In this document: positions 13,771-37,931 of the stretch, in pieces | Layout: each line of letters begins with the position of its first letter | How positions within the stretch are numbered: position 1 is the first letter of the stretch | Source of the DNA: Chloroflexota bacterium | GTDB lineage: Bacteria; Chloroflexota; Anaerolineae; J036; Brachytrichaceae | Assembly: GCA_030550095.1 (NCBI GenBank) | Contig: JAUQQA010000022.1 | Location: forward strand, 1-39,135 | Length of the DNA stretch: 39,135 nt | Reading direction: 5' to 3' | The notes under the pieces: model-generated | Databases searched by the model: none | Told to the model about the DNA's origin: nothing | Seen by the model: the letters and a program-made list of their open reading frames with translations, nothing else | Translations under genes and position numbers: made by a program

Positions 13771-13870
13771 GCGCGCTTGATCCCCACTTAACCCAATAGC
13801 TAACCTGAGCTTATCACTCATGCTCTAGCATTGTCGCCTGTTGAAGCATGTCCATAGGGTGAGGCACACC

Positions 13871-16800
13871 ATGAGCACCGAGCGAATGCTTCATCTTGCG
13901 ACTGCCCTCGCGTTGGCACTGGCTTCATTACCTGCTCTGCCGCAAGGCGCGCATGTTGCGCAGGCGCAAACCGTGCAGGTGATCACGCAGTGGACGTTTG
14001 GGACGCAAGGCAACGAGACGCTCACCCCACAAATCGGGAGCGGTTCTGCGGTCACCGTGGGCAACGTTTCTTTCACGTACGCGGCTGGTCTTGCGGGTAA
14101 CCCAGATCGTGGCTGGAACACCAGCAGCTACCCCGCGCAAGGCACTGGTAACAAAACCGCGGGTGTAGAGTTCCGCATCAGCACCACGGGGTGGCAGAGC
14201 ATCACGCTGCGCTATAACCATCGTTCGAGCAACACCGCAGCCAACACTTCAGTCGTGCGCTACTCGACCGACGGCGGCGCGAGTTACACCGAGATCGCAA
14301 CCTTCACCTTGCCGCCGGCGTCAGGCGATACATGGTTCACGCGCACGGTGGATTTCAGCAGCATCCCGGCCGTGAACAACCTTGCTGACTTTCGCGTGCA
14401 GATCGTGGCTGCCTTTGCACCGCCGACCAACACGGGGTATGTTGCAGCCAACGCTCCAACGAGCACCTACAGCACCAACGGCACTTGGCGGTTCGACAAC
14501 GTCACGTTCGAGGGCTTTGACCTCCCACCCACCGTTGTAGGCATCACACCCGCTGATGGGGCAACTGGTGTGCCGCTGGATAGCAACGTGGTGATCACCT
14601 TCAGCGAACCCGTCAATGTGAGCGGCGACTGGTTCTCGTTGAGTTGCACCACAAGTGGAGAGCGCAAACCAAGCTTAAACAATGTGGTGGTCAGTGGAGG
14701 GCCCACAACTTTTACGCTTGATCCCTTGCTTGACTTTGCAAGCCAAGAAACGTGCACGCTCACCGTGTCCGCTGCTGCAGTCAGTGATCAGGATACGAAT
14801 GACCCGCCAGATACACTTGAAGCGGATTTCACCGCGAGCTTCACCGTCCAGCGCCAATTGCCCGCGCTCTGCGCTGACCCTAATCTGGTCCCAATCGGGA
14901 GCGTGCAAGGACCAACGACCAGCAGCCCGCTCTCAGGCGCGGTGGTAACCGTGCGCGGCATTGTGGTTGGCGACTTTGAGACCAACGCCAAACTTGGCGG
15001 TTTCTACATCCAAAGCGAAACGCCCGATAACGACCCCAACACTTCCGAAGGGTTGTTTGTGAGCAACGGCAACAACGACTCAGTGAGCCTCGGCGAGCTG
15101 GTCGTCGTGACAGGGACGGTCGCTGAGCTTTCTGAGCAGACCAGCCTTGTTGGTGTCACCATCCTCTCGTGCGGCACAGTTGCATTACCGGCGCCCACCG
15201 ATGTTACACTGCCGTTCAGCACGCCCGACGACCCCGAGCGCTATGAAGGCATGCTGGTGCGCCTGCCGCAAGAGCTAACGGTGACTGACAACTTCCGTCT
15301 CGGCCGCTTCGGGCAACTCACGCTCTCCAGCGGTGGTCGCCTGTGGCAGCCCACGCAGATCGTCACGCCGGGTGCGCCAGCGCTTGCGTTGCAAGCAGCA
15401 AACGACCTCAACCGCATCATCCTCGACGACGACACTAACCAGCAGAACCCTGACCCGATCCGCTTTGGCGGCGGCTCGAACCCGCTCTCGGCGGCGAACA
15501 CGCTGCGCGGCGGCGACACAGTGAGCAACATCGTCGGCGTGATGACCTACGGCGGGGGTGGTGCTGCCGCAAGCCCTCCGGCGTATCGCGTGCGCCCGAT
15601 CGCGCCCGTCACCTTCACGGCGAGCAACCCACGCCCGCTCACGCCGCCGAACGTCGGTGGGAGCTTGCGCGTGGCAAGCACGAACTTGCTCAACTACTTC
15701 AACACCTTCGGCGCTGGCAACTGCACGCTTGGCGTAGGTGGCCCACCAACCGACTGCCGTGGTGCAAGCAATTCCATCGAATTCACACGCCAAGTCTCCA
15801 AGACCATCCCGATGCTGCTTGAGCTCAATGCAGACGTGATCGGCTTGGTGGAGCTGGAGAACGACGGCTACGGCGCAGACAGCGCAATCCAAGACCTGGT
15901 CGATCGCCTGAACGCAGCCACTGCGCCAGGTACGTATGCGTTCGTTAACCCTGACGCCGCTTTGGGAGTCACCGACGCACTGGGCACTGATGCGATCAAG
16001 GTCGGTATCGTGTATCGCCCCGGGCGCGTCACGCCGGTAGGTCAGACGGCAGTGCTCACAAGCGGCGCATTTGGCACGTTCGTGATCACCACCACGAATG
16101 GTTTTGCGACTACGCAGCGCAACCGACCGCCGCTTGCACAAGCCTTCCGTGATAACGCCACAGGCGCAGTGTTCATCGTTGTTGTGAATCACTTTAAGTC
16201 CAAAGGCTCAAGCTGCGCCGACAACGTCAGCCCCGTGGGTCCTGACCCAGACACGGGCGATGGGCAGGGCCACTGCAACCTCACCCGCCGCGCCGCTGCC
16301 CAAGAGCTTGCCGCCTGGCTCGCCACCGACCCCACCGGCACAGGCAGCCCCAACGTGCTCATCCTCGGCGACCTGAACAGCTACGCGCAAGAGGACCCGA
16401 TCCGCGACCTGAAGGCGGCTGGCTACATCAACCTCGCTGAGGCGCGCCTAGGGTTGCAGAGCTACTCTTACTCGTTCAACGGGCAATGGGGCACGCTTGA
16501 CTACGCGCTTGCCTCGCCGAGCCTCGCGCGCCAAGTCAGCGGCATCGCAAAGTGGCATGTCAACGCTGATGAGCCTTCGGTGCTCGATTACAACCTCGAA
16601 TTCAAGTCGCCCGCGCAACAAATTTCCCTCTTTGCCGCTGATCCCTTCCGCGCTTCGGATCACGACCCACTCATCGTCGGCTTGAGCCTCAACGTGCCGC
16701 CGCGCCTCTCAGCGATCAGCACATACGACACAGGACTTGGCGGGAACGGCGCCGAGATCATCGCCGTGCGCGGTGACCATGGCGCGTTGAGCAACAGCGG

Positions 16801-19300
16801 CGACCAGAGCTTTGATCTGCTCGACCTGAGCGACATCCTCGCGCCGCAGCTCCGCGTGCGTGTGGGTCCCACGGCAACGCTCAACGGGTTGAACGGATTG
16901 GCGATCCATCCCACGAAAGACCTCGTGCTTGCGGTGGCGGGGAGCGCTAGCCCAGCGGCGAACCCAGTGAACGGCAAAGTCATCGCCTACCGCCTCAGCA
17001 CAGGTGACTTCATCACTGAGGCGTTGGTCGGCATCCAGCCCGACGCGATCGCCATCTCACCCGACGGCACTTGGGCAGTGGTCGCCAACGAAGCTGAGGC
17101 GCCTCAGCAGAACGACAACGGTGGCCCGGGTTCGATCTCGCTCATTGACCTAAGCACGTTCGACCCTGATGCGCCGACGCCGCTCAGCGTGATCACGCTG
17201 CCGCTGCCCTCACAAGCAGGGACGCCCGGCTTTAGCGTCGGTCGTTACGACGACATCGGGCGATTGCTGATTGACAACACACCCGACACGCTCGAGCCTG
17301 AGAACGTCGCGTTCTCGCCAGACTCGCGCTTTGCCTTCGTCACGTTGCAGGAGAACAACGGCGTGGTGCGCGTGGAACTCTCCGCGCCCTACACGCTCAC
17401 GTTCTTCGGCTTGTATAGCACGACGCACTACGCCGACTTGACTAACGGCGGCGGCTATAACCCCACGCAACTGCTCACCGCATGGCGCGAGCCAGACGGC
17501 ATCGGCGTGTTGGACATTAGCGGCACGCGTTACTTCTTCACTGCCGACGAGGGCGACACGCGCCCCAGCCCGGGCAGCGCGGGCGTGCGCGGTGGGCGCA
17601 CCGTGAGCGTCTTCCGTGCAGATGACGGCAGCTTCGTCGCCGACACGGCAGGCAGCCTCGATGACCTCGCCGCGCGCTGGGGTCGCTATCCCGACACGCG
17701 CAGCAACCGCGGCGGCAGCGAACCAGAAGGACTTGATGCTGTGATCTTCCAAGGGCGCGCGCTTGTTGCTGTGGGCTTGGAGCGCGCGAATGCAGTGGTC
17801 GTGATCGACGTGACCGATCCCACGACGCCTACGCTCCTCACGTTGATCCCGACCGACGCTGCACCCGAGGGCATTAAGCTCGTCGCGCGCAACGATGCGC
17901 TCTACGTGCTGGCGGCAAACGAGGTTTCAGGCACGCTCACCATCGCGCGCGCGCCCGTCGGGCAACAGCTCTTCACGCAGCGCCGCGCGACGGCAAACGC
18001 CTTCCCGCTGCACGACGTGGTGGTGCTTGATCCCGACTTCGACCAGACCTTCACGGTAACGCTGCGCGTGGATCCAAGCAAGGGCGCGCTCGGCTTCGCC
18101 ACAGGCGGCAACCTCGCCAGCGTGGTTGACACCGCCACTGGCGTTTACACCTTGAGCGGCACGATCACCGACGTGAACGCGGCGCTTAAGACGCTCACCT
18201 TTACGCCAACAGTAGGCATCAGCGAGACCGTTGTCGTCTCGGTCACCGCAACGGATGGTGCGCAGAGCGACCTTGGGATCATCCGTCTCGAGGTCAACGC
18301 GAACGTCATCCTTGCGCTGACGGCAGCGCCGACCGTTTTGCCCGTGGGGAACCTCAGCACATTAACTGCGACGGTCACCGACTTGAGCGGCTTGCCTTTG
18401 AGCGGGGTTGTTGTCTCGTTCACAACGGATCTTGGCAGCGTGGTGCCGCCGACCGCTACCACCAACGCGAACGGCATCGCTACAGCGAGCCTGAGCCGCA
18501 CTGTGCCTGGCGCGGTGACCGCGCAGGCTGAGGCGCTTGGCGTGACGGCAACCGCGCAGGTGACCTTCCTCGTGGGCGCGCCTGCTGCAATCACCCTCAA
18601 CGCAACACCCTCGCTGATCTTCGCCAACGGCATTAGCCAAAGCGTAGTGATCGCGCAGGTGAGCGATGCGTTTGGCAACCCAGTGCCAGGCGTGAACGTG
18701 CAGTTCTTCGCAGGGATAGGCGTTTTCAGCCCCTCTAGTGGCACAACCGACGTCAGCGGGCGCGTCACTGCTACACTGACCTCCACCGTGCCAGGCACGG
18801 AGAACGTGAGCGCCTTCGCTGCTGGTCGCGTTGCCCAAGCGCAGATCACGTACCAGCAACCGCCTACCTCGCAGGTGAACCTCAGCGGCAGCTTGACCGC
18901 GATCACGCAAGCGCTTGGCATCGTGCGCCGCGGCGACGTGCTCACCTACCAAGTCACGATCACCAACACGGGCAACGGCGCGCTGAACAACGTGCTGATT
19001 GTGGCACCGATCCCGAACGGCACCGCCTACATCGCTGGTAGCGCCGATGGCGGCAGCTTTGTGGGGACTGGCGGCGCAAACCTGATGCCGCAAGTGGTGC
19101 AGAACGCAGTGGTGTGGTCGGGTAGCCTTGCGCCAGGCGCTGCGCACGCGCTGCGCTTTGCCGCGCAGGTGCAGCTTCTCGAGGGCACGATCACCTTCCA
19201 GCCGCGCGTTTACCTGGACAACGAGGACAGCGGCTTAGACTTGCGCAGCACCACCGACGTTGAGGCGTTCAAAGTCTTTCTGCCCCTCGTGCGGCGCTGA
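13871..19300 (+). CDS. Giant secreted nuclease (ExeM/NucH-like) with beta-propeller, Ig-like and DUF11 domains
   Basis: The 1809-residue product starts with a signal peptide (about 1-33, ending AQAQT). In order it then has a beta-rich N-terminal region, a Big_5 Ig-like domain (about 219-325, ITPADGATGVPLDSNVVITFSEP) and an OB-like domain (about 340-450). The endonuclease/exonuclease/phosphatase domain (about 597-935) shows STNLLNYF, VELEND, NHFKSKGS, LGDLNSY, TLDYAL and SDHDP, so its active site looks intact. A choice-of-anchor-I-like beta-propeller region (about 940-1380), a cadherin-like segment, two Big_1 Ig domains (near 1478 and 1573) and a DUF11 repeat (about 1684-1790) follow. It ends VFLPLVRR. 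The likely role is digestion of extracellular DNA, perhaps for phosphate. ATG 13871 is preferred over an in-frame TTG at 13841 because the signal peptide begins there and AGGGTGAGG precedes it. Confidence 0.88.
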   Translation: MSTERMLHLATALALALASLPALPQGAHVAQAQTVQVITQWTFGTQGNETLTPQIGSGSAVTVGNVSFTYAAGLAGNPDRGWNTSSYPAQGTGNKTAGVEFRISTTGWQSITLRYNHRSSNTAANTSVVRYSTDGGASYTEIATFTLPPASGDTWFTRTVDFSSIPAVNNLADFRVQIVAAFAPPTNTGYVAANAPTSTYSTNGTWRFDNVTFEGFDLPPTVVGITPADGATGVPLDSNVVITFSEPVNVSGDWFSLSCTTSGERKPSLNNVVVSGGPTTFTLDPLLDFASQETCTLTVSAAAVSDQDTNDPPDTLEADFTASFTVQRQLPALCADPNLVPIGSVQGPTTSSPLSGAVVTVRGIVVGDFETNAKLGGFYIQSETPDNDPNTSEGLFVSNGNNDSVSLGELVVVTGTVAELSEQTSLVGVTILSCGTVALPAPTDVTLPFSTPDDPERYEGMLVRLPQELTVTDNFRLGRFGQLTLSSGGRLWQPTQIVTPGAPALALQAANDLNRIILDDDTNQQNPDPIRFGGGSNPLSAANTLRGGDTVSNIVGVMTYGGGGAAASPPAYRVRPIAPVTFTASNPRPLTPPNVGGSLRVASTNLLNYFNTFGAGNCTLGVGGPPTDCRGASNSIEFTRQVSKTIPMLLELNADVIGLVELENDGYGADSAIQDLVDRLNAATAPGTYAFVNPDAALGVTDALGTDAIKVGIVYRPGRVTPVGQTAVLTSGAFGTFVITTTNGFATTQRNRPPLAQAFRDNATGAVFIVVVNHFKSKGSSCADNVSPVGPDPDTGDGQGHCNLTRRAAAQELAAWLATDPTGTGSPNVLILGDLNSYAQEDPIRDLKAAGYINLAEARLGLQSYSYSFNGQWGTLDYALASPSLARQVSGIAKWHVNADEPSVLDYNLEFKSPAQQISLFAADPFRASDHDPLIVGLSLNVPPRLSAISTYDTGLGGNGAEIIAVRGDHGALSNSGDQSFDLLDLSDILAPQLRVRVGPTATLNGLNGLAIHPTKDLVLAVAGSASPAANPVNGKVIAYRLSTGDFITEALVGIQPDAIAISPDGTWAVVANEAEAPQQNDNGGPGSISLIDLSTFDPDAPTPLSVITLPLPSQAGTPGFSVGRYDDIGRLLIDNTPDTLEPENVAFSPDSRFAFVTLQENNGVVRVELSAPYTLTFFGLYSTTHYADLTNGGGYNPTQLLTAWREPDGIGVLDISGTRYFFTADEGDTRPSPGSAGVRGGRTVSVFRADDGSFVADTAGSLDDLAARWGRYPDTRSNRGGSEPEGLDAVIFQGRALVAVGLERANAVVVIDVTDPTTPTLLTLIPTDAAPEGIKLVARNDALYVLAANEVSGTLTIARAPVGQQLFTQRRATANAFPLHDVVVLDPDFDQTFTVTLRVDPSKGALGFATGGNLASVVDTATGVYTLSGTITDVNAALKTLTFTPTVGISETVVVSVTATDGAQSDLGIIRLEVNANVILALTAAPTVLPVGNLSTLTATVTDLSGLPLSGVVVSFTTDLGSVVPPTATTNANGIATASLSRTVPGAVTAQAEALGVTATAQVTFLVGAPAAITLNATPSLIFANGISQSVVIAQVSDAFGNPVPGVNVQFFAGIGVFSPSSGTTDVSGRVTATLTSTVPGTENVSAFAAGRVAQAQITYQQPPTSQVNLSGSLTAITQALGIVRRGDVLTYQVTITNTGNGALNNVLIVAPIPNGTAYIAGSADGGSFVGTGGANLMPQVVQNAVVWSGSLAPGAAHALRFAAQVQLLEGTITFQPRVYLDNEDSGLDLRSTTDVEAFKVFLPLVRR

Positions 19301-19323
19301 GTCCGCCACCAAGTGGCGAGGTG

Positions 19324-19357
19324 CAGGCGGGAGAAGCATCATCTCCCGCCTGTTTTT
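19324..19357 (+). terminator. Intrinsic terminator after the secreted nuclease gene
   Basis: An 11-bp perfect GC-rich stem (19324-19334 with 19342-19352) with a 7-base loop is followed by TTTTT. It sits 24 bases after the nuclease stop and 15 bases before the convergent protease stop. The left flank has few A residues, so action on the minus-strand transcript is less certain. Confidence 0.88.
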
Positions 19358-19371
19358 GTTGGTTCGCCCCC

Positions 19372-22300
19372 TCATGGCAGGCGAATCACGTGTGGCAGAA
19401 ACACCTGCGAGCGCTGCGGCTCGATCCACGTGCCAATGGCGCCTGCCAGCGGCTCGGCATCCCCGAACAACACGACGTGGTAATACGCCGAGGGCGAAGC
19501 GGCTAACTGCGGCAGCGAGAGCGCGTAGGTCACCTGCACGGACGTGCCACCAGCAAGCGCCCCCGCCCAACGCACCACGTTAGAGATCGGCACACTGAGG
19601 CTCGGCGCAGAGGTCCACAGCGTCTCGCTCAGCAGCGACATGCTGAACGGCACGATGGCGACGAGCGCCGCGCTTGGCGCTGGCGTCGCGCCGAGGTTAG
19701 TGAGCCAAACGGTGGCTGTCACGCGCTCACCCCAACGTGGCTGCGTCGGCGTGATCTGCAACGTTGCGGTGAGCTGCGGAGCCTCGAGGCGTACCACAGC
19801 TTGGCGTGCGAAGCGCATGCCCAGATCGCTTAGCTCGAAGAAAGCGGTGACAGTGATAAGCGATCCTGGAGAGGCAGTTGGGGGCGCTGCCACGGTGAAC
19901 GTCCATGTGCTCACCGTCCCTGCATTGAGCGCGCCCTGCCACGCGCCCGCAAATGTTCCCCCTGCGCCTACCAAGTCCGAGGCGATCACCGTGCCGCCGC
20001 TCACCTCCGCCGAGAGGTGCACGCTGGCGCTGATCGCGCTGCGCCGAGCATCGTCCATAGCTGCACGTAAGACGAAGGTGATCGGCGCGCCGGCAGTTGG
20101 CGTTGCAGGGTGCGCATAGAGCGTTGATTCGCCCAGCCACGAGAGCCATCCCACTACGCGATTCATCAGGTCAACGCGCGCGTGCGCGTCGAGCACCTCG
20201 AAGGCGAAAGGCATGAAGACTGCGCGCCACCTCGATGGCGCTATCCACGTCGAGATGTGGGGGGTGATTGGCGCGCTGTGTGCAGTGCCTGTGTGTGCCA
20301 GCCCGAAGGGCTGGAGCCGATCGCCGCGCAACACCACCGCCGCGCTGCGCATGGGCTGCACGGCTGTGCTGAGGTTCCAGTTGTATGGGAATCGCCCGCC
20401 GGGTCCCGTGAGCAGCGTCCCACGTGCGAAGCCCGCTCCTATGGAGTGCTCGGGCGTGCCTGTCACGTTGCTCACCACATCGGCGAAATCAACATCGCCA
20501 ACGCCGAGATAGTGGCGCACGAAGGGGTGTGTAAGCGCGAGGTAATACAAAGCGGCTTGTGAAGTGAAGAACAAGCGCCCGCCGTGCTCAAGATAGGCGC
20601 TCAGCCGCTCCCCTTCGATGTTGGTGAGCGGGTCGAACCAATCGTAGGCGTTGAACCAGATCACCAGCGGGTACATTTGGAGCACGGACAAGGGCGGGCT
20701 GTGGCGCGCATCGCCGCCGAGGGTGCTCCAACGATCGGCGTGGTTGCCGAGCGCCGCGAGCGCGTTCAGGTAATCCGCCTCGCGGTCGAAAAAGCGGTCG
20801 TCGTCCACGAGCAAGATGCTGGCGGGCGTTTTGCTGCGCAGCATCACGTGGGCGCTGACGGCCGGCGCGCTGTTCAGTGTTGCGGCGAGCGTCACTGCGT
20901 CGGTGGTGTCCCACGTCGCCGTTGGCGGGATGTGCACCGTCACCGTGACGAGCGCAGCTTGACAAGGCGCGAGCGTGATCTGGGTGGGTGTGATCACCGT
21001 GTGCCACTGGTGACCACTCACTGTCAAGGCGATCGTCTCGGTGATGCCTGCCTCGCCTGTGTTGCGAATGCGCACCACATGCGTGATTGTCGTGCTGGGC
21101 AACGCAACGGGCACATCCCAGTGCGGGTCGGGCAGCGCAGCGACCGCCACACCTTGCGTTGGTCGTGGCGCAGCGAAAGCCGCAAGGGTGCGGCTGATCG
21201 CCGCTGCGCGCTCCTCCGCGCTGTGGATTGCCTCGATGCCAAAGCCAAACAACGCAGCGCGGTAAGGTAAACACGGCGCGGCATACACGCCTGCCCAAGC
21301 GTTGTTGCGCGCGTCACCCGCGTAGCGCGCGATGGGCATGCCGCGGTCGGCATTGCGCACTGCAAGCACGTCGGGCGAGCTCTGATTGTTCGCGCCGTCG
21401 CCGCCCGTGATGCTAAACGCGTGCCCTGCGAGCAATGTGCCTGGCGTGCCGATCACGCGCCACGAGGGTGCGTTGTCTTCTACCAGCGCTGCGTTCAGGC
21501 GTGCAAAGTACGGCGCTGGCGCAAAGGCGCCGTCGTAGAACGCCACGTCCTGCCCGCTGAGCAGCAAGTTGCGCCCTGCTGCGAGGTAGCGCGAGAGCGC
21601 GTCGCTCGCTCCGACCAAGCCCGGCGCGTCGAACGGCGCAGACCAAATCACCGCGTCGTAGCGCAGCAGGTCGGTGATCGTCGGCACGTCCCGCGGTGGG
21701 TCTTTCACGCGCTGCTCGTCGTATGCCAGGCGCAAGTCGTCGAGCGCGCGGCGATAGAACGCTGCTGCGCTTGCGTAATACCATGCACCGCTGTCCACCA
21801 GCAGCACGCGCTGTGTTGGCGTGAGCACAAACGGCGCCTCGGTGATCGCGCCGTCGGTCACGACGACGGTTTGCGTCTGCACGAGGTAGCCCGTCAACCG
21901 CGCCTCGAGGGTGTAGGTGCCGGCGGGCAAGTGCAACACGTAGTACCCTAGGCCGCTATCCGCGCGCGATTGCGCTGGCGTGTCCAACGCGCGCACGAGC
22001 GTTTGCGTCAGCGCTGTTCCGCTGGCCGCGTCCGTGACTAAGCCGCGCACGATCCCAGAGGGCAACGGCGAGAGCGCGAAGTCGAGCCGCTGTGCCTGCC
22101 CTGCCTGCACGATGCGCGGCGGCGAGGTGATGCCGGCGAAGCCGAAGGCGCTCGCCGTGAGCGTGTAGATGCCTGGCGGCGCGGCGAGGGCATAGCGCCC
22201 GAGCGCGTCAGTAGTGGCGCTTGGCGTGTGCGCGTTGCCGTGTGCCTGCACGCGCGCGCCGCTGATCGGCTGCCCAGCGTGCAACACATAGCCGGTGATC

Positions 22301-23805
22301 ACGCCGTGCGGCAAGACGCGCAACACCGCGCCATAGGCATCCACACGACCCCAGCCGCTGTCGTTGTTGGGCAACGATGTGGAGAGCGGCACGGCGGTGC
22401 TAGTGAGCACGAAGAGCGTCTGCGTCACGTCGAGCGTAGGGCTGACACTGCGCAGCAACGCGGCGATACCCGCGACGTGCGGTGTTGCCATCGAGGTTCC
22501 GCTGGCGCGCGCATAGCCGCCGCCAGGGAATGCCGAAACCACGCTGACGCCTGGCGCGACCACGTGCGGGCGCACCTCGCCAAACGGTGAAGGACCGCGG
22601 CTGGAGAAGCGCGCCACGTGGTCATCCTCATCGCTCGCGCCGACGCCAACCGCGCCTGGCAAACTTGCGGGCGAGCCAACAGTTTGTTCGCGCGGTCCTT
22701 CGTTGCCGTTGGCGAAGACGACGAAAATGCCCGCCGCGCGCAGCGCTTGCACATCGGGCAAAAACTCGGTGTCGCTGCCGTTCTCCGCCCCCCATGAATT
22801 GCTGAGCACGTCTGGCGCGCGGTTGGGGTCGCCGTTCGGCGCGAGCATGAACTGAAAAGCAGCGTGCAACCAGCTATAGTAGCCGAAGCCATCACCGTTC
22901 AGGCCCTTCGCTGCCATCCAACGCGCGCCAGGCGCGACGCCGATCCCGCCCTCGCCCACGAGGGTGCCCATGGTATGCGTACCGTGCCCGTGCAGGTCAG
23001 AAGGATAAGCGGCGCCTTCGTTCGTCGCGTCGAACCAGTTGTGCAGGTGGTCCGCTGCAGGACCGCCGTTCCAGCCGCGATAGCGCGGCTTCAGCGCGGG
23101 GTGATGCCAATCCACGCCTGTGTCAATGTTGGCAACCGTCACGCCGTCGCCGGTCACGCCCAACTCGCGCCAGACGCGATCGGCGCCGACACGTGCCACG
23201 CCCCACGTGACCTCGCCCGGCGCCAACGCGCCAACTTGCGCGTAGGTGCTGAGCGCCGTGCTCAGCGGTGTGCGCGCCTGCACTGTTGTCTCCAGGCGCA
23301 ACGGGCCCGGGAACGGCGGCGCTGCATCGGCGATCCACTTCTGCCAGCGGTCGAGCGTCACCTCGGCGACATCCTCGCGCGCGGCAAGCGCGCGCACCAC
23401 GTCGGGTGGGGCGCTGAGCGCGATCGCGTTGACGATCCACAACGCGCGCACTTCGCGCACGCGCGCAGCAACTGCTGGTTGCGCGAGGAACGCCAGCACA
23501 TCGCGTTGGCTGTGCGCGGCTAACGCTTGAAGATCAGCGACGAATGCGGCGCGCTGTGCTTTGCGCGTTGCGAGCGGCAGATCGAGCTGCTGCGAAACAC
23601 GGCGCGCATGCGCGCCTGAATCAAAGCGCACGAGCACACGCACGAGCGCATCCGCGGGCAAGACGCGCAGCGCGTCTTCCAACGCCGAAGAGAGCCGCAG
23701 GCGCTGCACGGGCGTGACGGGCTGCGCCTCAACGCGCGGGGCGTTCGTTGCCAGCCCCAAGACGAGCGCGCTGACAAGGAACAAGCGGGCGATTGCGCAA
23801 ACCAT
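19372..23805 (-). CDS. Secreted subtilisin-like (S8) serine protease with long C-terminal extension
   Basis: The 1477-residue preproprotein has a signal peptide (about 1-28, ending RVEAQP) and an inhibitor-I9-like propeptide region (about 30-190). The peptidase S8 domain (about 205-490) has its catalytic triad visible: D228 in NIDTGVD, H274 in HGHGTHT and S438 in [19 protein letters not shown] holds the oxyanion asparagine. Two carboxypeptidase-regulatory-like beta domains follow (about 502-650). Two similar segments (from about 668 and 997) each begin [RS][VI]LLVD and contain a hydrophobic VIW strand, a glycine-rich turn and LxxSGQ/FFTSQ; they look like flavodoxin/GATase-type folds. Ig-like and DUF11-like domains complete the chain, which ends [11 protein letters not shown]. 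The start ATG lies only 57 bases from the divergent xylose isomerase start. Substrate is unknown. Confidence 0.88.
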
Positions 23806-32356: not shown

Positions 32357-35300
32357 TTACGCTGACTCGCCGAACACGGCGGGATGCTCAGCAAGTTGCG
32401 CGGCAAGGTCCCGATCGTAGCGGATGGTGATCACGGTGTAGCCTTTCTCGCGGAGCTGTTGACGCTGCGCCGCGTCGCGCGCGCGTTGTTCGGGCGCGTC
32501 GTGCACGCTGCCGTCGCAGAAGATGAGCGTGCGCGGCGCGTAGAAGAAATCCGCCACGCATCCTTCCTCGGACACGTGATGCTGCGCCTCGGTGGGCAAA
32601 CGCAAGCGGCGCTCGGCAAGCGCGTTGAGGAACGCGCGCTCTAAGTCGGAGCGCGCATCGGTGCGCGCACGCAGGAACGCGAGCTGCTCGTGCCAACTGC
32701 GATTGCCGTAGCGGTGCAGCGCGTCTGCGCGGCTCAGCGCGAGCAGTGCATCGCGCACCGCGTGTCGGTCGAGCCAAAGTGCGTGCTGCTGGTTGTCGAA
32801 GCTGAGCAAGCACTCGTAGCACGCCTTCGCGCAGGTCTCGCTCGTGTTCGCGCCGGTGTCGGGGTCGAAGTGGCACACCGCCAGCGCCTCGCGCGCGCAA
32901 CGGGCGAACGCGCGCGGCGAATGCGCCAACTGCGCCAACACGCCCAGGCTGCCCTCGGCGTTCTCGTAGAAGAGCACGCGCCGCCACGCGCCCTCGCCGA
33001 CCACGTCCACGCCCAGCTCGGATTCCTCCAGCTCAAACACGCGCCCGATGCCGCGGCGCAGCGCGTAGGCGAGGCTCCACCACCACCCCTCTTCTGCTGC
33101 GGGGTGTTCAGGGCGGAACAGCAGCACGTCTTGCGTGACGCGCACGGTGAGCGCAACGCGCTCAGGCGCGCTGGTGGCGGTTGGCGGTCTATCCCGTCGC
33201 GTGCCTTGGTTGTCATCTTCGCGCGCGAATTCGCCGCTCTCCAAGTGCACGGGGAAATCGGGCTGCGCGCTGTGCCCGCGGTTGATGAAGTGCAGCTCCG
33301 CCGCCAGCGCGTAGGTGAACGCGCCCAGCACTGCGCCTTCGGTGCTGACCAGATCAGCGTGCTCTTGCTGGCTGTTGCGCAGGTCGTATGCCAAGCGAAC
33401 GCGGTAGTGTCGGCGTGAACGCTCCTCTTCGTCCGAGGTGATGCGCTGGGTGCGGCGCAGGCGCACGTTGGGCATCTCCAGCGCAATGACAAGCTCGCTG
33501 TGCCCCTCGCCCACAGGCGAATGGCATGAAGGGCACAGGTCCGCGCTCAACTGCGCGCCCCGCTCGATCAGCGCGCCGCACACGTTACACGCGCGCACGC
33601 TGGTGCGCCGATTCGCTAGCCCGCCGGCTGGCGCTTGAAAGCTGCTCACCTCCCACTTCTCGCCCTCGTGATACACGATGTTCCTCGGCGCGAACTCAGT
33701 GAGCGCAAGCGTGCGCGGTCGGCTGATGAACTCGCCCTCGCTGCCGCGCGGCACCCACGCGCGCACTGGCAGCGCGGGGAAGTTGTAGCCGGGCAAGAAC
33801 CCCTCCGCAGCGAGATAGCGGTAGGGGTAAAAGTCGCTCTCCTCGCGCTGCACGTCTTCTTGCAACAACAAGCTGCGCTGGCGCACGGCTTGGTTCATCT
33901 TTTGCTGCGCCTCATTTCGCTCATCTCTGCTCAGCCGTGGTATCTGGAGGCGCTGTTGCGCCGCGAGCAATTCCGCTTGGACGGTGCGATAGAGCTCGCG
34001 CCAGCGATCAAAGGCGCGGTCGAACCGCTCCGCTGCGCCCGCGATCACCTCGCGCACCCACTGCTCCGACCACCACGCGGTTTGTTGCAAGCGCTCGTGG
34101 TCGCGCGCCAGCGCCTGCATCACACGCTCGAGCACGCGCTGGCGTCGCGCCTCGGAAAGCTGGAGCTGCTGGCGCACGTCTTCTCTGAGGGGCAGCGCCT
34201 CCTCGTCCTCGAGCACGATCACATCGCCGATGGATTCCTTCAGCGGTAGCCCCACCTCGGCAAGCCATTCGGCGTGGATGTGCGTGCGCAGCAGCGCCTG
34301 GTTCGCCAACTCCAACCGCGGCGGGCGCACGCTGCCGACGACCATCGCCTCACGGTGGCGGAAGAAGTATTGGTCGTGCTGGTTGTAGGCGCCGCAGTAG
34401 GTGAGGATCAAGCCGGGTTGCCCCTGGCGTCCAGCGCGCCCGCTGCGCTGCGCGTAGTTGGCGGGCGTTGGCGGCACGTTGCGCAGGTGCACCAGCTCCA
34501 GCGTGGCGATGTCCACGCCCAGCTCCATCGTCGGCGAGCAGACGAGGTAGGGCAAGGGGCGCTGTGGATTGTCGCCACGGAAGCGCGCCTCGCGCCGTTC
34601 GCGCTCGCCCGGCGTCACCACCTGCGCGGTGTGCTCGCGCGCCTCCATTGTGATCAGGGCGCAGGGCGGCGTGCGATACAGCGCTTGAAAGAAGGCGTTG
34701 ACCCCTGTGTTGAGCTGCTTTGCGCCTGGGATGCGCCGGCGCGTGATTGGGTCAGGGGATGGGGCCGTGCCGTCGCCCAGCTCCCAGCACAACGCCGCGT
34801 GGTTAAGCTGGTAACTCCCCTCTCCAAGCAGGTGCAGCAAGTCATGGCTCACGAGCAGATCGCACAGCGCTCGGATGAAACGCTCGTAATCGGGGATGCT
34901 GCCGAGTTCGCGTTGCAAATAGCGCCCGATCGCGCTGCGCTCGCCGAGCGAGACCACGCCTCTGCCTCTGCCGTTGGCGGCGGTGTTCACCATCGCTAGC
35001 TTCGCCTCTTGCAGGCGCTCCTCCGGCTCAAAGCCCCAGAACGGGTTTAGCTCTTGTTCGACGCGGCGGCGGAAGGTGCTTTGTGTTTCGGGTTGCAGGC
35101 AGGGCGCGTTGATCGCCAACTTGCGCCGCAGGTAATCGAGCACGGCGCGCACCACGACCTTGCGCTTCTCGGGCGGGTGCTGCGCCAGCGGCGCCAGCGC
35201 TGCATCCGTCTCCCAGCGCGCGTCGGCGCAGCAATCTTGCAAACCGCGATACGCGATGCGCAGCAGCCCTACCTGCTCCAAGTTCGGGCGCGTGAAGCGC

Positions 35301-37408
35301 CAGCCCCGGCTCAAGTCCGCGTAGAGACGATACTCCAGCACCTCGGTGAAGGCGCGTTCCTTCGCGCGCCATCCCTCCGTGCCTGCGTTCAAGTCGGGGT
35401 TGTTGCCATACTCGCGCGGCGTCAAGCCGCACTGCGCCAGTTGTTCGCGCACTGCCTGTGCGACTTCGGCTCTGCCCAGCGGCGAGCGTTGGCGCAGAGC
35501 GGCGTAGAGCGCGCTGCGCAGCAACGTCACCTGCACGAAGTCGTTGAAGTGCCCTGCTTGCAACGAGGCATCTTGGCGGTTATCGGTGAAGGTGAGCAGC
35601 TTGTCACGCAAGCCATGCTTTGGCGCCTCGCGCAGCAGCGTCATCGCCATCACCGTTGTTGCGCTGCTGCGCCCTTCCGCCGTCAGCCCGCCTAACTTGA
35701 CGAACTCGCTGTCGTGCAGCGTGTAATACTCGCCGCAGTTGAAGCAAATCAAAAACGGCTCCGGCTGCCACCACATTTGAACCGCGCCAGGGCGCTGGGT
35801 TGTGCTGAGCTTGCCGTCGGGGGATACCCACACGCGCTCCCCTTGGTACGCTCGCCGATCACGCTTCAGCTTGCCCTGCGCCTCGAACCACTCCTCGGGT
35901 AGCTGGACCTCTTCGTCCTCCGCGGCGAGCATGAGATAGCCGCGCTGTGCTCCGTCCTCCTGCTCGAAGTCTGAGAACGCCGAGACCGGCACCACGTCTT
36001 TGGATCGGCGCACGACGTGGTAATACTCCTGTCCGCATTGGCGGCAAAAGCGCAGCGGCACCAACAGCCGACCGTCCTCAAGCTGGAGCTGCCCGCTGGT
36101 GCTCAACACGCGGCGATCGGGCGGCTCGAGCGTCGCTTCGACCGTGCGCCCTTGGCTGACAAACTGATGCAGCTTGAAGCTGAACACGGGACGCCCGCCT
36201 TCGCGCAGTTGCGCGCCATGCACCAGCCAGCGCTCCAACGTCGCCGCGCACTCCTGCGGGTCGCGCCCCACGCTCTTGCTGAGCGCCTGAGCGACCTCCG
36301 AGAGCGGCTTTGGGTCGCGCCGACGCAGCCGCCCGTCTGCCTCTGCCACTACCCCGAGCGCGCCTTCGATCCAGCGCGCCAACGGATGCGCGCGGAACGC
36401 CGCTGGGTCGTTCGGCGGCGGGTCGTCGAAGCGCGCGCGCAGCGCGTCGTGCTCGTCTTCGCGCAGCGGTCCGGCGGTGATCGTGCGCAGCGTCTCCTCG
36501 ATCACCTCGTCCGCCGTGAAGGGATGCCCGAAGAAGCGCGCGGCGAAGTCAGCGATGGTGGCGCGGCGTTGCTCGGGCGTGCTGGTGCGGTCCGCCACCA
36601 TCGTCGCGCTGGTGCCGATGTGGATCAAGCCCTCGGCGGCGGAGCGCGCCTTCAGCCGACGCACCAACATCGCCACGTCCGCGCCTTGGCGCCCGCGGTA
36701 AGTGTGCAGCTCGTCGAAGACCAAAAAGCGCAGCGCGTTCTCACCGAGCAAGCCCCGATCCGCGAAGCGCAGCATCAGCAGCTCCACCATCACGTAGTTG
36801 GTGAGCAGGATGTGCGGCGGGTTTTGGCGCAGTCGCTGGCGTTCCTCCTCGGGGGTCTCGCCGGTGTACTTGGCAAACGTGAGCGGGAAGGTGCCGACGC
36901 CGTGGCGACGCTCGTACTGCGCCTTGAAGCGCTGCAGGGCGTCGAGCTGCGAGTTCACCAGCGCGTTCATCGGATACACCACGAGCGCGACGACGTGCTG
37001 CGGGCGCAGCAGGTTTTGGCGCAGCACAAAGTCGGCGATCGGGATGAAGTAGCACAGGCTTTTGCCCGAGCCCGTGCCGCTGGTGACCACGAAACTGCGC
37101 CCTTGCGCGGCGAGGTCCAGCGCGTCTGCCTGGTGTTGGTGCAGGCGCAACGTCGCGCCGTCGGGGGTGCGAAAGATCGCTGCTGTGGTCGGGTGGATCG
37201 CCCCTTGTTGCGCCAGCGCGTCCAACGTCTGCGCGGGCTGGTAGCTCGGGCTGAGCTGGAGCAACGGCTCGGGCCACAGCTCGCCCTTGTCGTGCATCAC
37301 CTGCTGGTCCACGAACTCGCGGATGCGCGGGTCGGCGATGGTGAGGTAGCTGCGCACGAAGTCGCGGTAGGTGCGGATCAGCGTCTCGTGCAGGTCGAAG
37401 ATGCTCAT
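32357..37408 (-). CDS. Large DUF1998-type DEAD/DEAH helicase with C-terminal Vsr/DUF559-like nuclease domain
   Basis: This 1683-residue protein is a superfamily 2 helicase. Motif I is TSGTGSGKS (about residue 107), motif Ia is VVYPMNALVNSQ, motif II is the DELH box (about 231) and motif III is GTSAT. Motifs V-VI are LGVDIATLE and AQRSGRAGRQGQ (about 991). Two CxxC pairs, CRQC (about 454) and CFNC (about 555), lie between the RecA lobes. CNVC/CPSC (about 1276-1293) forms another probable zinc site. KACYECLLSFDNQ with LDRH (about 1529) is the DUF1998 cysteine motif. The last 90 residues, with VADFFY (about 1619), IFCDGSVHD and GYTVITIRYDRD, look like a Vsr/DUF559-type nuclease. ATG 37408 follows the PIN stop by 16 bases and has AAGGGGGA before it. 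The family is related to helicases of DISARM, Druantia and MrfA, but the exact subfamily is not settled. Confidence 0.85.
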   Translation of the reverse strand: MSIFDLHETLIRTYRDFVRSYLTIADPRIREFVDQQVMHDKGELWPEPLLQLSPSYQPAQTLDALAQQGAIHPTTAAIFRTPDGATLRLHQHQADALDLAAQGRSFVVTSGTGSGKSLCYFIPIADFVLRQNLLRPQHVVALVVYPMNALVNSQLDALQRFKAQYERRHGVGTFPLTFAKYTGETPEEERQRLRQNPPHILLTNYVMVELLMLRFADRGLLGENALRFLVFDELHTYRGRQGADVAMLVRRLKARSAAEGLIHIGTSATMVADRTSTPEQRRATIADFAARFFGHPFTADEVIEETLRTITAGPLREDEHDALRARFDDPPPNDPAAFRAHPLARWIEGALGVVAEADGRLRRRDPKPLSEVAQALSKSVGRDPQECAATLERWLVHGAQLREGGRPVFSFKLHQFVSQGRTVEATLEPPDRRVLSTSGQLQLEDGRLLVPLRFCRQCGQEYYHVVRRSKDVVPVSAFSDFEQEDGAQRGYLMLAAEDEEVQLPEEWFEAQGKLKRDRRAYQGERVWVSPDGKLSTTQRPGAVQMWWQPEPFLICFNCGEYYTLHDSEFVKLGGLTAEGRSSATTVMAMTLLREAPKHGLRDKLLTFTDNRQDASLQAGHFNDFVQVTLLRSALYAALRQRSPLGRAEVAQAVREQLAQCGLTPREYGNNPDLNAGTEGWRAKERAFTEVLEYRLYADLSRGWRFTRPNLEQVGLLRIAYRGLQDCCADARWETDAALAPLAQHPPEKRKVVVRAVLDYLRRKLAINAPCLQPETQSTFRRRVEQELNPFWGFEPEERLQEAKLAMVNTAANGRGRGVVSLGERSAIGRYLQRELGSIPDYERFIRALCDLLVSHDLLHLLGEGSYQLNHAALCWELGDGTAPSPDPITRRRIPGAKQLNTGVNAFFQALYRTPPCALITMEAREHTAQVVTPGERERREARFRGDNPQRPLPYLVCSPTMELGVDIATLELVHLRNVPPTPANYAQRSGRAGRQGQPGLILTYCGAYNQHDQYFFRHREAMVVGSVRPPRLELANQALLRTHIHAEWLAEVGLPLKESIGDVIVLEDEEALPLREDVRQQLQLSEARRQRVLERVMQALARDHERLQQTAWWSEQWVREVIAGAAERFDRAFDRWRELYRTVQAELLAAQQRLQIPRLSRDERNEAQQKMNQAVRQRSLLLQEDVQREESDFYPYRYLAAEGFLPGYNFPALPVRAWVPRGSEGEFISRPRTLALTEFAPRNIVYHEGEKWEVSSFQAPAGGLANRRTSVRACNVCGALIERGAQLSADLCPSCHSPVGEGHSELVIALEMPNVRLRRTQRITSDEEERSRRHYRVRLAYDLRNSQQEHADLVSTEGAVLGAFTYALAAELHFINRGHSAQPDFPVHLESGEFAREDDNQGTRRDRPPTATSAPERVALTVRVTQDVLLFRPEHPAAEEGWWWSLAYALRRGIGRVFELEESELGVDVVGEGAWRRVLFYENAEGSLGVLAQLAHSPRAFARCAREALAVCHFDPDTGANTSETCAKACYECLLSFDNQQHALWLDRHAVRDALLALSRADALHRYGNRSWHEQLAFLRARTDARSDLERAFLNALAERRLRLPTEAQHHVSEEGCVADFFYAPRTLIFCDGSVHDAPEQRARDAAQRQQLREKGYTVITIRYDRDLAAQLAEHPAVFGESA

Positions 37409-37424
37409 CGCGTCTTTTCCCCCT

Positions 37425-37931
37425 TCAACACTTGAAGCCAAGGCGTCGGAGCATTTCAAACGTGTTGATGAATTCAACGCCAAAGTGCCTGCAAACATTC
37501 GGCAACTTCACGTGCCCATGCACTCGCTCCGTTCTCGGGTCTATGTACTCTTGGCGTTCTGCTTCCAGCGTCACGACGATTTGCCCGCTTGCGGCTGCTT
37601 GGGCTACAACCCAAGGGTCAGCGCTCGCAAGAAAGGTTGTTGCATGTTGCGGCTCGTAGCGCTCAATGACCAATTCGGCAATCTCCTGATACTTGGCGCT
37701 CACAGCCAGCCCTGGCTGTAGAAACAACGTGGCGTTTGCCTTCGCCCAGTCGCTGAGCGCATCAGATTTTCTGTTTGTCAGCTCATCAAACACCGCGGCG
37801 CAGCTTATCCATTTTCCTTGCTTGCCCCATCGCTCCAGACTTCTCCAGAAGCTTGGGAATAGATCGAAGGCATAGTATTGCTGATATGCAGTGATGAACA
37901 CGCTGGTGTCAATGCAAAACTTCTTTTGCAT
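37425..37931 (-). CDS. DUF4411-like PIN-domain protein, putative toxin ribonuclease
   Basis: The 168-residue protein has a PIN fold: D8 in FCIDTSVFI, a mid-protein DEL (about residues 46-48) and ADPWVVAQAA near residue 106 supply the acidic metal site. The segment YYAFDLFPSFWRSLERW is typical of the DUF4411 family, which is commonly encoded next to XRE-ImmA/IrrE proteins as a toxin-antitoxin pair. The stop of the upstream regulator overlaps this ATG by one base (TGATG), so translation is probably coupled; a GTG three bases earlier is possible. My hand count over 37441-37920 gives about 54% G+C, well below the helicase gene (62-72% in sampled lines). RNase activity is inferred from the fold, not shown. 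Confidence 0.85.
   Translation of the reverse strand: MQKKFCIDTSVFITAYQQYYAFDLFPSFWRSLERWGKQGKWISCAAVFDELTNRKSDALSDWAKANATLFLQPGLAVSAKYQEIAELVIERYEPQHATTFLASADPWVVAQAAASGQIVVTLEAERQEYIDPRTERVHGHVKLPNVCRHFGVEFINTFEMLRRLGFKC

Follow-up and report, generated by a model that had tools for sequence, protein, structure and literature searches.

C-terminal sorting signals on multidomain proteins exported by the Sec pathway are known from the LPXTG/sortase, PEP-CTERM/exosortase and GlyGly-CTERM/rhombosortase systems. In type IX secretion, the signal similarly lies past beta-rich domains of Sec-exported proteins and is associated with PorU, a peptidase of the C25 family; this signal is a domain (CTD) of about 80 residues. 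Much shorter is the YLP-box, represented by two NCBIfam models of 11 and 10 positions, NF050076 (sort_motif_YLP; cut-off 15 bits) and NF053834 (ultrashort_CTERM; cut-off 10 bits). Both are named 'YLP-box putative sorting motif', and are therefore labelled putative by NCBI itself. No paper on a bacterial YLP-box motif was found among the matches listed in a search of open-licence PMC papers.

The window, i.e. the whole stretch of 39,135 nucleotides analysed here, hosts two convergent genes whose stop codons are separated by 71 bases. Translation of the ORFs confirmed both the reading frames and the C-termini given in a preliminary description of the sequence. The first gene (13871..19300, plus strand) encodes an extracellular endonuclease of the ExeM/NucH family (NF033681, 620 bits), in which choice-of-anchor I, Big_1 and DUF11 domains are recognized by Pfam and NCBIfam models. 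The longest ORF begins at a TTG at 13841, and the ATG at 13871 yields what looks, by eye, like a typical signal peptide, MSTERMLHLATALALALASLPALPQGAHVAQA, predicted to extend up to ...AQA (13871..13966). The nuclease terminates with the sequence VFLPLVRR (19274..19297, plus strand). The second gene (19372..23805, minus strand) encodes a giant exoprotease of the S8 subtilase family. The protein features a predicted signal peptide, similarly read by eye, up to ...VEA (23725..23805), a Peptidase S8 catalytic domain (22348..23151; PF00082, residues 219-486, E 2.7e-49), a C-terminal part predicted by AlphaFold as a run of beta strands, and a tail (19375..19407) with the variant FLPHVIRLP, all on the minus strand. 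Relatives of the protease (orthologues L031-L043) have been found in Thermoflexales, Candidatus Roseilinea and further Chloroflexota genomes. The convergent nuclease-protease pair is conserved in the relative locus L032, and the pair is present also in G002 (L128). Both tails had been described as located directly after DUF11-like domains. This is correct for the nuclease (18926..19213, plus strand; PF01345, residues 1696-1791, E 1.5e-7) and does not apply to the protease, in which Pfam detects no DUF11 at E<=0.001. Elsewhere in the window (32357-37498) a DEAD/helicase protein of 1713 residues with a MrfA Zn-binding domain is encoded, which is unrelated to the tail.

According to the preliminary description, no curated family of sorting signals covers such tails. 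In fact, the nuclease tail is found above both YLP-box cut-offs when the last 50 amino acids (20.4 bits for NF050076, 17.4 for NF053834) or the last 300 (15.3 and 12.7) are searched. Scores depend on the search, as NF050076 reached 18.6 bits in the genome search and 12.9 bits, under the cut-off, in the full-length scan, where NF053834 was not among the matches at E<=0.1. The nuclease tail thus adds a further example to a kind of motif that is annotated already, with which it shares the exact C-terminal position and the [YF]LP core. The protease end FLPHVIRLP differs in this respect, since neither model matches its last 50 amino acids at E<=10, and is to be taken as a box-like variant rather than as a scored member. 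At the same threshold NF050076 and NF053834 match 12 and 15, respectively, of 80 collected tails. Most tails escape both, and the models therefore probably see only part of the set. NF050076 matched also in 12 of 14 control genomes, above the cut-off in two, and hence the short YLP-box models are not specific if used alone.

The consensus derived from the collected sequences is [YF]-L-P-x-[VI]-x-R at the exact C-terminus of Sec-exported proteins in which the preceding domains are unrelated. In a logo of 86 tails, partly circular because most of the conserved positions were fixed by the DNA search pattern, [YF] is found in 83 sequences, L in 82, and P is followed by a mostly hydrophobic residue, [IV] (82/86), any residue and R (78/86). 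The stop is located four residues past P in 77 of the 86, and little information is present upstream of position -3. The search pattern, [FY]LPx[VIM]x[RS]-stop with F allowed also at the L position, is blind to variant tails and to those with a terminal K or a TAG stop codon, and misses the protease of the window. One genome (G026) has no matches to the pattern, yet carries a tailed ORF (L185).

With the reversed pattern as control, strict tails number 5 vs 0 in the genome of the window, 120 vs 19 in 31 genomes (this one plus 30 relatives) and 595 vs 255 in 300 Chloroflexota genomes. Their distribution in the latter set is patchy. In sums added by hand from the 300-genome table, an excess of tails over controls is found in families f33 (191 vs 23, 21 genomes), f43 (51 vs 5, 7 genomes), f66 (48 vs 5, 7 genomes), f1 (24 vs 2, 7 genomes) and f16 (42 vs 15, 9 genomes), and none in families f14 (34 vs 34, 19 genomes), f38 (74 vs 92, 21 genomes), f41 (4 vs 3, 30 genomes), f39 (3 vs 3, 21 genomes) and f31 (2 vs 2, 16 genomes).

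Orthologues of the protease, identified by protein similarity and not by the tail, back the consensus independently of the search pattern. Ten of them include the stop: five have canonical ends (FLPIVAR, FLPIIRRTTP, FLPIVVR, FLPLVVR, YMPLLSR), three degenerate ones (HHPLVGR, HLPIVRRP, YHPSVARR), and in two the end is changed and extended. The last two (L038 and L039) have a longer end, with SFPIVWNNQF...ITPVVR where the tail would be, and have thus naturally lost or altered the tag. LPxVxR is invariant in all six aligned nuclease C-termini, four of the five rows besides that of the window having been fetched for their tail.

Tailed proteins are mostly exported. In 80 regions, corresponding to about 76 of the 120 strict matches plus four chosen for variant tails of the genome of the window, a signal peptide was scored in 61/66 complete tailed ORFs vs 131/433 other complete ORFs of at least 150 residues (Fisher p about 8e-23); the test is crude, home-made and lenient, as 30% of the controls pass it. 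Twenty further regions gave 22/27 vs 71/235. The tail pattern used to choose the regions places no requirement on signal peptides; the 22/27 count retains ORFs truncated at their 5' end, the 61/66 count excludes them, and each of the two tail counts includes one evident false positive (L109, L149). The enrichment at secreted proteins anticipated in the preliminary description is therefore borne out by both sets. Samples unselected for tails, from which 5'-cut ORFs were also excluded, are less rich. In 400 kb of the genome of the window a loose tail was found on 2/99 ORFs with a signal peptide, one of which (REHIPALP) looks false, and on 0/203 others; in regions sampled at even spacing from three tail-rich genomes, tails were found on 0/95, 1/92 and 1/78 ORFs. 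Only a small part of the exported proteins, then, carries the tag.

The enrichment in signal peptides, the unrelated domains and the position of the tails in structural models, described below, make a recognition element, as already proposed, the best reading of the data. The tail is probably an ultrashort C-terminal YLP-box tag on Sec-exported proteins, with a putative role in sorting or retention; a function of this type is likely. A tailed protein would first cross the membrane via the Sec pathway. Once outside, the free tail might be bound by a receptor or an enzyme of the envelope, and perhaps be cleaved or transpeptidated. Binding would place or retain the protein at the cell surface.

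Candidate readers of the tag have been searched in 25 tail-rich and 25 tail-poor genomes, hand-picked from the strict-pattern counts. The annotated clusters recurring next to tailed genes are common families, such as ABC transporters, histidine kinases and a Glu/Gln-type tRNA synthetase. Peptidases of the C25 (PorU/gingipain) family were found in 24/25 tail-rich and 2/25 tail-poor genomes. They are present in 56 of the 300 genomes, which host 377 strict tails vs 55 controls; the other 244 have 218 vs 200. Forty C25 loci were fetched, and a cluster made by a tailed giant protein, a membrane-tailed protein and C25 recurs among them in several families. The giant, which may end as ...YFIPLIGR, carries DUF11 repeats in L190 and L195. 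The membrane-tailed partner has DUF11 in L181 and L195, and a Lysostaphin_N match under the cut-off in L200. Proteins with a C-terminal membrane helix and a basic end were observed beside C25 in L181, L189, L193, L195 and L200, and also in L236, L237, L238, L240 and L241. Among the neighbours other than C25, 13/223 are tailed in these loci and 2/265 in the evenly spaced sample from three genomes; the p value of 0.001 overstates the case, because the C25 loci are related and one of the 13 (L199) is itself the divergent C25 of G243, unflagged by BLAST, and others may be C25 too. H and C residues of catalytic type are kept in 42/42 C25 sequences. The C25 of G243, presumably Chloroflexus aggregans, has PorU (NF033707) as its best NCBIfam match, at 169.6 bits, far under the cut-off of 420 bits, and is accordingly a Pfam C25 member and not a PorU equivalog. 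In some loci (L183, L184, L187, L188, L197) C25 is found near a small PqqD-like protein. This protein was recognized by NCBIfam scan in L183; elsewhere it was judged visually, on its size and its C-terminal end. L183 encodes in addition a radical SAM/SPASM protein and an HprK-related kinase-like protein, a set reminiscent of a peptide-maturation cassette that includes a gingipain-family protease.

These associations suggest a mechanistic sub-case of the tag hypothesis, tentative and on balance improbable, in which a C25 peptidase, docked on the membrane-tailed protein encoded next to it, reads the tag as a sortase. Co-occurrence, gene clustering, retention of the catalytic residues and resemblance to PorU all favour it. 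On the other hand, C25 was not detected at E<=10 in the genome of the window, G002, G027 and G264, which have 5, 3, 2 and 3 strict tails, respectively, even though G001, of the same genus as the first, has one C25. Many C25 copies end themselves with the tail or a variant of it (e.g. ...VPLVQR), and may be mere substrates; the PorU cut-off, as said, is missed. The tailed ExeM nuclease family, taken as control, is moreover distributed much like C25 (19/25 tail-rich vs 2/25 tail-poor genomes), so shared ancestry or a shared exoprotein repertoire may account for the profile. As an enzyme co-occurring with the tail, C25 is an incomplete candidate. As the nuclease control and the lack of C25 in the genome of the window weaken the case, C25 is kept here only as a rival explanation and as a lead that can be tested.

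The analogy with type IX secretion is likewise partial. Sec export, a C-terminal signal past beta-rich domains and a C25-family peptidase in most tail-rich genomes are shared features. The tail differs in being eight residues long and not a domain, and the genome of the window lacks C25. No type IX CTD model was found among the nuclease and protease matches at E<=0.1, and SprA (TIGR04189) scored 0/18, in a search which had no positive control. A wider scheme can be drawn for Chloroflexota, which reportedly lack the common outer-membrane genes, in which a PorU-like C25, held by the adjacent-encoded membrane-tailed partner, would read the eight-residue YLP-box and attach or place giant exoproteins in an unusual, multilayered envelope, lineages such as the genus of the window having lost or replaced the enzyme. 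So formulated, the scheme is doubtful.

Tails might alternatively act as C-terminal stability elements, for instance by protecting proteins from, or exposing them to, a tail-specific extracellular protease, without any role in location. The placement at the very end of the protein, with a terminal Arg, fits this idea, as may the presence of several proteases or other exoenzymes among the tailed proteins. We consider this explanation unlikely.

Less plausible is the notion that Ig-like domains simply end structurally in the tail, as their last strand or as a cap. Many tailed proteins do finish in beta-rich domains, against which a few hydrophobic residues could pack. However, the 80 tailed C-termini match 64 Pfam families, and the commonest of these, DUF11, accounts for only 8; subtilase, M23, M14, RCC1, Kelch and C25 domains are all found within 300 residues of the end of tailed proteins. 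Choice-of-anchor domains owe their name to their occurrence beside varying anchors; choice-of-anchor Q is matched by 9/80 tailed C-termini, choice-of-anchor I by the nuclease of the window. The C-terminal regions of nuclease and protease were modelled by AlphaFold with mean pLDDT of 83.1 and 83.4, respectively. The last strands end at residue 233 of 245 in the former and 312 of 328 in the latter. Both tails lie past them as coil with declining pLDDT (76 to 65 and 73 to 57 in the last blocks), and not as a strand of the fold that precedes them; the placement is moderate evidence, because the alignments are shallow (6 and 13 rows).

Recognition of the tail by a classical sortase is very improbable. 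Sortases (PF04203) are common in the phylum, and LP is found within the tail motif as in LPXTG. They occur in 24/25 tail-rich genomes, but also in 21/25 tail-poor ones (Fisher p 0.35), are missing in the tail-rich G307, and were rejected as partners on these grounds. Neither window tail contains LPXTG, and in contrast to LPXTG, PEP-CTERM and GlyGly-CTERM proteins, tailed proteins lack a membrane helix: a helix-like segment within the last 70 residues was found in 1/80, and a lipobox-like site in 3/80. The missing helix sets the tails apart also from PEP-CTERM-type exosortase substrates. The corresponding enzyme (TIGR04178), absent in G000, was found in 2/25 tail-rich vs 6/25 tail-poor genomes, and the exosortase/archaeosortase hypothesis has been discarded. 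The co-occurring transpeptidase envisaged in the preliminary description has thus no counterpart among sortases or exosortases, neither of which tracks the tail. That the two C-termini of the window are alike by mere chance, an idea to which the non-canonical protease tail lacking a YLP-box match lends some colour, is hardly credible given the 120 vs 19 matches in 31 genomes, the 61/66 signal peptides and the protease orthologues ending with FLPIVAR, FLPIIRRTTP, FLPIVVR and FLPLVVR.

A short tag found on many exported proteins offers a handle on how proteins are placed in the Chloroflexota envelope. With its spread over the lineages, the C25 cluster and the catalogue of tailed proteins in hand, the search for the machinery becomes testable. 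Thirteen strict tails are hosted by a genome which we take to be that of Roseiflexus sp. RS-1, and ten by one that is presumably that of C. aggregans. The tag is therefore not simply tied to an outer layer, and a signal restricted to such a layer is made less probable by the Roseiflexus tails. R. castenholzii has been reported to have no outer membrane, and a diderm-like envelope is described for Chloroflexus aggregans in published cryo-tomography work. Outer-membrane-like layers are reported from cryo-tomography in some Chloroflexota devoid of LPS or BamA genes (PMC7332563, PMC13319060); the second paper, dated 2026, refers to mono- or neoderm architecture. BamA and LPS genes are reported as absent in Chloroflexales (PMC7332563), a further difference from type IX secretion. 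Tails can also be locally reiterated. In G243, region 7700-15447 of L141 encodes three paralogues in tandem, each about 780 residues long and ending with GVYLPMI[VI]R, and a fourth tail of this type is found just upstream.
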